Position numbers and translations under genes: made by a program
The notes under the pieces: model-generated
What the model saw: the letters and a program-made list of their open reading frames with translations, nothing else
Databases searched by the model: none
What the model was told of the DNA's origin: nothing
Shown here: positions 29,909 through 32,896 of the stretch, one piece after another
Layout of the letters: each line of letters starts with the position of its first letter
How positions within the stretch are numbered: the first letter of the stretch is position 1
Assembly: GCA_022563855.1 (NCBI GenBank)
Contig: JADFMN010000001.1
Span: 124,001-188,000 of the forward strand
Length of the DNA: 64,000 nucleotides
Reading direction: 5' to 3'
From: Armatimonadota bacterium
GTDB taxonomy: Bacteria > Armatimonadota > Fimbriimonadia > Fimbriimonadales > Fimbriimonadaceae

Positions 29909-32896
29909 TCAGTCCGCCACGATGTTGACTAGACGTCCGGGCACAACGATCACCTTTCGCACGGTTTTTCCTTCGAGGTGTTTCTGAACGGTCGCAGATG
30001 CCTTGGCGCTGCTTTCGAGCTCCTCGTCGGACGCATCTGCCGGCATCGTGATCGTGTCCCTGAGTTTTCCATTTACTTGCACCGCAATCGTGATTTCTTC
30101 TGGCTTCGCGAGGTACTCGTTCGCGATCGGCCAGCTAGCCTCGTAGACGAACTCGCGATGTCCTATGTCGCTCCAGATTTCGTCGGCCGTATGCGGCGCG
30201 GCGGGCGACAGCACGAGGATCATGCTGTCCAGAGTTTCGCTTAGCGCGAGTTTCTCGTCGTCGCTAGGCTTTGTTGCACGTTTAAGAAGGGCGTTGATCG
30301 TATTGACGTGAGTCATGAGCTTCGCAATGTAGGTGTTGAAGCTAAACGACTCTATGTCCTTCGTTGCTCCTGCGATCAACTGGTGCGTTGCGCGTCGCAC
30401 ATCGCGTATGATGCCGTCCTTGCCGACAGAGTCGATCTCGCTGTGCCAGTCCGAGACGTAATGTTTCGCTAGTTCCGCTGCTAATTTGAAGACGCGAGAC
30501 AGGAACCGGGTCGAGCCTTGAATAGCTTCTTCCGACCACGTGAACGACTGCTCGAACGGAGCGACGAACAGTTCGAACACTCGGAGGCCATCGGCACCGT
30601 GTCTCTCGACCGCTTGTTCCGGAGTGACGACGTTCCCCTTTGACTTGGACATCTTTGCGTCTCGCCAAAACACCTCGTCCTCTGGTAGCTGGCGTGCTTC
30701 TTCTGCCGTTATTTGGATGCCATCTTCGCCGACCTTCAGCTGTTCACCTTCGCGCGGTCTTCGGTACGGAGTCGGTGCGAGCACCATGCCTTGGTTCATC
30801 AGGCGCGCGAACGGCTCTTTGACCTTCACATACCCCGCGTCGTACAGCACCTTGGTCCAAAACCTGGCGTACAGCAGGTGCATCACAGCGTGCTCCGCGC
30901 CGCCGACGTAGCAGTCCACCGGCATCCAGTGCTCGGCTGCATCGTTGCTCCACGCCTCGTCGTAGTTGTGCGGATCGCAGAAGCGAAGGAAGTACCACGA
31001 AGAGCAGGCGAATCCGCCCATCGTGTCGGTCTCGCGGCGACCCAGCCGACCGTCCGGATCGGTGACGTTGACGAAATCTGGGATGAGCGCGAGCGGGCCG
31101 GTCCCGTCATCGGGCGGCTCGTAGTTTTCGACGTCCGGAAGTTCGATCGGCAAGAGGTCGTCTTGCACCGCGTGCATCTCGCCGTCCTTGTCGTGGATGA
31201 TCGGGATCGGGCAGCCCCAGTACCGCTGCCGGCTGATGAGCCAGTCACGGAGCTTGTAGTTAGTCTTTGCCTCGCCAAAGCCGTTTGCGATGATCCAGTC
31301 TGAGAGGCTCTTCTGTCCGTCTTTGACGGTCATGCCGGTGTACTCGCCGGAGTTGATCATCACGCCGTCTTCGGTGGAGAACGGAAGGGATACGCTGAAA
31401 GCGGATTCAAACGCTTCTTCCGAAGTGTCCCCTCCCCCTTGGGGGAGGGTTAGGGAGGGGGTTTCACCGGTATCTGCCGCCGCCCCCTCTCCAGCTCTCC
31501 CCCAAGGGGGAGAGAGTCCCTCCGCGCCAACAGGTGCTATGACCGGCACGACGTCGAGCCGGTACTTCTTCGCGAACTCGTAGTCGCGCGCGTCGTGCCC
31601 TGGCACGGCCATGATCGCGCCGGTGCCGTAGCCCATCATTACGTAGTCGGCGATCCAGATCGGCACGCGCTTCCCGTTTGCTGGGTTGATGGCGTCGACT
31701 CCCGTGTAGACGCCGGTCTTCTCACGGTTCGTCGCCTGCCGGTCGATGTCGCTGAGCCCTTTCGCCTTCTCGCAGTACCCATAGATCGCCGCACTGTGCT
31801 CGGCGTCCGTGACCCCTATGATCACATTTACTAGAGGGTGCTCCGGCGCGAGCACACAGAACGTCATGCCGAAGATCGTGTCGATACGGGTCGTAAAAAC
31901 TCTGAAGGAGTGCTTCTTGATCGGCAATTTGGCTTCGAGCGCACCCAACGTTCCGCCGATCGCGGCAGCGGCTCGCTCAAACTCCGCTTGTCCCGCAGCA
32001 GCTTCAGCAGCCTTGTCGTCGAGCTTCGTCTTGATCTCTTCGATCTTCTCAGTGACGGCAGGATCGGCTGTCGCACCCTCAGCAGCGACCTCTGCTTTGA
32101 GCGCTTCGAGCTCTGGATCTGACCCTTCGTCCACTTGGCGACTGCCAGGCGACGGCGAAGTGGCCGACGCTCCAGCAGGCGACACAGCCAATGACATCTC
32201 GAACTCAAGCCCCACCGACCGACCGATCCAGTTGCGCTGCTGATTCTTGATCCCCTCCGGCCAGTCGAGATCGTCCAGATCATCGATTAGCCGGTCGGCG
32301 TACTCGGTGATCTTGAAGAACCACTGCGGGATGTTCTTCTTCTCGACAGGGTTGTCGCACCGCCAGCACAGGCCGCCGACGACCTCCTCGTCGGCAAGCA
32401 CCGTCTTATCGTATGCGCACCAGTTCACCGCCGCGTCTTTGCGGTAAGCGAGACCGCGCTCGAACAGCAGCTTGAAAATCCACTGCGTCCACCTGTAGTA
32501 CTGCGGATCGGAGGACTTGAACGACCGCGACCAGTCGAAGCCGATCCCGATCAGTTCCATTTGCCTCTTATAATTAGCGGCGTACTCGTCGATCATCGGC
32601 GCGGGGTGAACGCCCCTATTGAGCGCTTCGACCTCGGCGGGCAGGCCGAACGCGTCGAACCCCATGGGGTGCAGCACGTTGAACCCCTGCATGTACTTCA
32701 TGCGGCAAAGAACGTCGGTCGGGATGTAGTTGCGACAGTGCCCGACGCTCAGTCCGGCGCCGCTCGGATAAGGGAAGTAGTCGAGCGCGTAGAACTTCGG
32801 GCGGCCGTCCTCGTCGCGGGTGCGAAAGAGGTCTGCGTCTCGCCAGCGCTCACGCCAACGGGCCTCGAACTGATCAGGTTCATACCGCCTCCGCAT
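29909..32896 (-). CDS. leuS: Leucyl-tRNA synthetase with two in-frame insertions
   Basis: A 995-residue class Ia synthetase charging tRNA-Leu; usual bacterial length is ~800-880. The HIGH-type motif is in GLSVGHCRNYIPTDVL and KMSKS in DAKMSKSKGNVVTP. Editing domain landmarks VFTTRIDTIFGMTFCVLAPEHPLV and MGYGTGAIMAVPGHDARD are intact. Two insertions sit in or beside the editing domain. One, at residues ~232-325, is an Ala/Glu-rich coiled coil. The other, at ~460-489, is encoded by a palindromic repeat (EGLSPPWGRAGEG...PSLTLPQGGGD). Catalytic motifs being intact, the protein should be functional. A TAGAAT box ends 7 nt before the ATG. Confidence 0.97.
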   Translation of the reverse strand: MRRRYEPDQFEARWRERWRDADLFRTRDEDGRPKFYALDYFPYPSGAGLSVGHCRNYIPTDVLCRMKYMQGFNVLHPMGFDAFGLPAEVEALNRGVHPAPMIDEYAANYKRQMELIGIGFDWSRSFKSSDPQYYRWTQWIFKLLFERGLAYRKDAAVNWCAYDKTVLADEEVVGGLCWRCDNPVEKKNIPQWFFKITEYADRLIDDLDDLDWPEGIKNQQRNWIGRSVGLEFEMSLAVSPAGASATSPSPGSRQVDEGSDPELEALKAEVAAEGATADPAVTEKIEEIKTKLDDKAAEAAAGQAEFERAAAAIGGTLGALEAKLPIKKHSFRVFTTRIDTIFGMTFCVLAPEHPLVNVIIGVTDAEHSAAIYGYCEKAKGLSDIDRQATNREKTGVYTGVDAINPANGKRVPIWIADYVMMGYGTGAIMAVPGHDARDYEFAKKYRLDVVPVIAPVGAEGLSPPWGRAGEGAAADTGETPSLTLPQGGGDTSEEAFESAFSVSLPFSTEDGVMINSGEYTGMTVKDGQKSLSDWIIANGFGEAKTNYKLRDWLISRQRYWGCPIPIIHDKDGEMHAVQDDLLPIELPDVENYEPPDDGTGPLALIPDFVNVTDPDGRLGRRETDTMGGFACSSWYFLRFCDPHNYDEAWSNDAAEHWMPVDCYVGGAEHAVMHLLYARFWTKVLYDAGYVKVKEPFARLMNQGMVLAPTPYRRPREGEQLKVGEDGIQITAEEARQLPEDEVFWRDAKMSKSKGNVVTPEQAVERHGADGLRVFELFVAPFEQSFTWSEEAIQGSTRFLSRVFKLAAELAKHYVSDWHSEIDSVGKDGIIRDVRRATHQLIAGATKDIESFSFNTYIAKLMTHVNTINALLKRATKPSDDEKLALSETLDSMILVLSPAAPHTADEIWSDIGHREFVYEASWPIANEYLAKPEEITIAVQVNGKLRDTITMPADASDEELESSAKASATVQKHLEGKTVRKVIVVPGRLVNIVAD
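31429..31520. repeat. Palindromic repeat element inserted in frame in leuS
   Basis: Two local palindromes (CCTCCCCCTTGGGGGAGG at 31431-31448 and CTCTCCCCCAAGGGGGAGAG at 31495-31514) are also inverted copies of each other, together with AGGGAGGGGG and CCCCCTCTCC. The ~92 nt can fold into one long hairpin. Removing it would leave about 30 codons fewer in the editing domain. Confidence 0.8.
32134..32153 (+). repeat. 20-nt repeat shared with the region upstream of galE
   Basis: CTTGGCGACTGCCAGGCGAC differs at one base from 14245-14264. It lies within the first leuS insertion and is followed by further GGCGAC units (32151-32185). Confidence 0.6.

Follow-up and report, generated by a model that had tools for sequence, protein, structure and literature searches.

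Inverted REP-like repeat units carried in frame within the leucyl-tRNA synthetase gene of an Armatimonadota bacterium

Results

The leucyl-tRNA synthetase gene (leuS) of a Fimbriimonadaceae bacterium contains an insert that is very probably an inverted pair of REP-like selfish units, belonging to a family amplified within the genus, kept in frame in flexible loops and most likely neutral. The gene lies on the (-) strand at positions 29909..32896 of the window, the 64-kb stretch of DNA analysed here, and encodes a protein of 995 aa (leuS_bact, 959 bits). As had been claimed in an earlier note on this DNA, the insert keeps the frame, which remained open over 995 codons without a stop.

The same note had described a single element of about 92 bp made up of two mutually inverted palindromes. 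These palindromes were present where it had placed them, with arms at 31432-31461 and 31483-31512 that were 87% complementary; however, they did not form one element but a pair of inverted 36-bp units, together spanning 31427-31517. Unit A (31427..31462; 36 bp, hairpin plus tail) is on the (+) strand, antisense to leuS, scored 60.2 bits with the covariance model described below, and codes for residues 479-490 (TPSLTLPQGGGD); its sequence is also present at many other sites in the genome. Unit B (31482..31517; 36 bp), inverted relative to unit A and thus on the (-) strand, sense to leuS, scored 48.5 bits and codes for residues 460-472 (LSPPWGRAGEG). The sequence between the two model matches is a spacer of 19 nt (31463..31481). 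The exact borders of both units were set by comparison with dispersed copies.

A second dispersed repeat, unrelated to the 36-bp unit, was observed in leuS at 32129..32174 on the (+) strand. This repeat, with the core CTTGGCGACGACCAGGCGACGGCGAAGCGGCCGACG, is in frame, corresponds to residues 241-256 in the other variable loop, and was found at 5 other places in the genome with 87-93% identity. An intein in leuS was also considered and ruled out, as the hits obtained did not include any intein or splicing family.

The 36-bp unit was characterized by a hairpin of 9 bp closed by a 2-nt loop and, next to it, a tail, TTAGGGAGGGGGT, which repeats the hairpin arm. The unit ends in RTCC and GGGGGT, and its flanks are variable. 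Relative to shuffled sequences, the leuS insert had a single-strand fold z of -4.1, versus 1.0 to -1.6 for four comparison stretches taken from leuS loops. An Rfam scan of the repeat reached no gathering score, the weak matches reflecting the hairpin alone.

The LeuRS loop in relatives and in structures

The insert lies in a loop between the HDxRDFEFA...VI.P and NSGEY motifs, whose length ranged from a few to about 140 residues among 14 aligned relatives. The inserted segment was found in 0 of these 14 relatives, in which the site was either empty or filled differently; close relatives sharing the segment without palindromic DNA, a situation that the earlier note had held against its own reading, were therefore not encountered among them. 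Mapping onto the LeuRS of Thermus thermophilus (1h3n) gave flanking alignments that stopped at residue 377 and resumed at 379, so that nothing in this enzyme corresponds to the insert. By established knowledge of LeuRS, the break falls within the CP1 editing domain, at a loop that differs in length between relatives, in agreement with the editing-domain position first proposed. In the congener leuS (L056, L112), this loop holds an insertion that is unrelated and about 140 residues long.

In an AlphaFold2 model of LeuRS (mean pLDDT 85.8), values below 50 were obtained for residues 243-258, 316-327, 460-479, and 484-490. The first of these segments coincides with the second dispersed repeat, and the leuS insert is predicted by the model to be disordered.

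Dispersal of the unit in the genome and the family

A BLAST search of the 3.18-Mb genome with the leuS insert gave 39 matches, including a few self-matches. The covariance model, built from 35 copies, identified 59 copies at E<=1e-3, chiefly outside recognised genes, which bears out the suggestion of a dispersed repeat and disposes of the objection that the element might have no other copy in the genome. Most copies were single or variably spaced rather than arranged as fixed pairs. The unit family is one that multiplied inside this Fimbriimonadaceae genus: among 85 genomes of the family, exact palindromes were numerous only in the two members of the genus (32 and 18), with 0-7 in the others.

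In-frame copies in other genes

Besides leuS, four genes of this genome held in-frame units: alaS had one, and argS, trmFO, and fucI had two each. NCBIfam and Pfam served to identify the host genes, and alignments with PDB chains and relatives showed which residues were extra; long spanning open reading frames lacking family support (e.g. L017, L213, L214, L224) were excluded from the gene counts. In all five genes (leuS, alaS, argS, trmFO, and fucI) the in-frame units lie in a conserved gene that they do not interrupt, and are absent from relatives, as in Rickettsia palindromic elements (RPEs).

The congener had in-frame units in alaS, at the site occupied in this genome, as well as in a gene of the phzF family and a carboxyltransferase gene of the methylmalonyl-CoA type. 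Because the alaS insert is absent in the remaining aligned relatives, it most likely entered the gene before the split of the two species and has since been kept, to judge from these alignments. In the congener trmFO, the corresponding position holds a shorter insert, which may be a degraded copy of the unit.

In the present genome, the carboxyltransferase gene is divided between the ends of two contigs (L305 start, G000:C9; L307 start, G000:C18), and a different palindrome occupies the site of the congener unit. The C18 end resembles the start of pdxA joined to the carboxyltransferase gene, and is possibly a misassembly.

Loss of the built-in stop codon

A stop, TAG (TAA when the opposite strand is read), is built into the consensus tail and shuts two of the six reading frames. 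The stop motif was intact in 32 of the 35 other copies versus 4 of the 12 in-gene copies; it was thus lost in 3 and 8 copies, respectively (Fisher p = 2e-4), the in-gene sample being small and including one orthologous pair, and the 35 other copies possibly including coding ones. In alaS, the codon at the place of the tail stop was AGG or AAG, depending on the species, and the fucI and trmFO units exhibited indels or substitutions there. In-gene copies appear to have been selected for an open frame.

Hairpin units in leuS of other lineages

Similar units were observed in leuS outside the genus. In G035, from another family of the same order, the same loop contained four consecutive hairpin units, all in frame, and related copies occurred elsewhere in a 103-kb sample of the genome. 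In G010, a one-contig genome, leuS carried inserts, all in frame, in the two variable loops as well as at two additional places, one of the inserts matching a segment inserted in uvrA of the same genome. In G017, a hairpin unit was present in the other variable loop. The fold z of the inserts in these three genomes ranged from -2.3 to -5.7. In-frame hairpin units were located in L057 (2319-2460), L085, L344 (2609-2677), and L341 (503-637), from leuS of G035 and G010, uvrA of G010, and a glcE-like gene of G035.

Stem length as the sole marker proved unspecific among 37 leuS genes, and the covariance model was therefore used in its place. Across the 37 leuS loci, its hits at E<=0.05 were confined to this genome, G035, G010, and L355, where the hit lay outside the leuS match. 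Because the lineages are scattered and their unit sequences differ, the simplest reading would be that the leuS-loop units were gained separately.

RAYT transposases

Nine Y1_Tnp (Y1 transposase) genes were identified in the genome. All seven of those that were scanned matched NF047646 (REP-associated tyrosine transposase, RAYT), four of them above the cut-off. The carB gene (L095 595-3180; G000:C1 near 285.7 kb; (-) strand) encodes an entire RAYT in frame between the CPSase_L_D2 and D3 domains, and a RAYT-type element can therefore persist in frame within a gene in this genome. This RAYT is flanked on both sides by REP-like hairpins of the type CATGGGC...GCCCATG, unlike the leuS unit. No copy of the 36-bp unit was found within 1.5 kb of any of the nine Y1 genes. 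Since the carB hairpins differ from the unit and the units are not near Y1 genes, we can only infer that a RAYT mobilised the leuS unit.

Discussion

The observations are consistent with the following course. The units would be mobilised through single-stranded DNA, putatively by a RAYT, and those that land in genes would persist only if the frame is kept, no stop is introduced, and a flexible loop is extended. In leuS, they would have landed in the CP1 editing domain, at the loop that varies in length. If the insert is translated, LeuRS would then be longer by about 30 disordered residues, an addition that is most likely neutral.

Alternatively, the repeat-encoded segment may have been co-opted, changing LeuRS editing or tRNA handling, with the uptake of units by tRNA enzymes reflecting selection. 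Such enzymes account for four of the five genes hit in this genome (leuS, alaS, argS, trmFO), the alaS insert has been retained in two species, and the same leuS loop is occupied in other lineages; nevertheless, we regard co-option as improbable, as the insert is predicted to be disordered, the inserted sequences vary between lineages and frames, and most relatives lack the inserts altogether. Still less probable is a repeat misjoined into leuS during assembly. The genome is a draft of 22 contigs, one of which ends at the palindrome in the carboxyltransferase gene, but five separate genes preserve the frame, an independently assembled congener shares the alaS insert, and comparable in-frame inserts occur in the one-contig relative G010. 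Ordinary variation in loop length, with GC-rich codons that look palindromic by chance, would suit the differences in loop length seen throughout the family, but it is scarcely credible: unit A agrees with the consensus along its whole length and near-perfect copies exist elsewhere in the genome, shuffles of the 64-kb window gave a chance expectation of zero matches to the unit core, and the palindrome pattern occurred 32 times in the genome versus 0 for a reversed-pattern control.

Under the preferred reading of a selfish, REP-like pair, in-frame palindromic insertions would not be peculiar to Rickettsia or to tagged REPs but would occur in another phylum too, and would recur at a single loop in an essential enzyme. 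Species of the order in which this loop is empty or differently filled would then constitute a natural experiment on protein segments derived from selfish DNA, neutral or not. A more speculative proposal, which we consider unlikely, is that hairpin repeats spread through single-stranded DNA land preferentially in LeuRS and other tRNA enzymes of Fimbriimonadales, and that some of the encoded loops are now functional.

Comparison with known systems

A REPIN is an inverted pair of REPs mobilised by a RAYT. The leuS insert resembles it in being an inverted pair of hairpin units in a genome that has RAYT genes, but differs in that the copies here are mostly single or variably spaced and a RAYT never lies beside the unit. 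As for the target-site duplication that would mark a MITE, the relatives with empty sites are too diverged for duplicated bases to show.

The best-known palindromes translated within conserved genes are the RPEs of Rickettsia (Ogata and colleagues), for which the review in PMC2229807 gives lengths of 105-146 bp. Both systems consist of dispersed palindromes, intergenic as well as in frame in conserved genes, whose enzymes tolerate them; the present unit, however, measures 36 bp, is single or paired, and belongs to Armatimonadota. The parallel with Rickettsia drawn in the earlier note holds for the manner of insertion, in frame in conserved genes and missing from relatives; the two systems were compared by description, from which the unit differs in length and host.

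REPs have also been listed within uvrA and within genes for tRNA synthetases and tRNA pseudouridine synthases, where many form dimers that code for 20-30 residues (PMC3733652). These intragenic REPs, of the GTAG and CGTC superfamilies, share with the present unit hairpins of 20-40 bp, inverted dimers, and a location in enzyme genes, and the unit, at 36 bp with its 59 copies, has the size and copy number of a REP (a palindrome of 20-40 bp in many copies). In contrast, it comes from another phylum, and its ends lack the GTAG or CGTC tag; it was therefore not filed as a REP of either superfamily. The literature searched, mostly other than subscription papers, contained no report of such repeats in Armatimonadota. 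Compared with these systems, the phylum, the repeat itself, the alaS copy shared by two species, the loss of a built-in stop, and the repeated use of one LeuRS loop are new.
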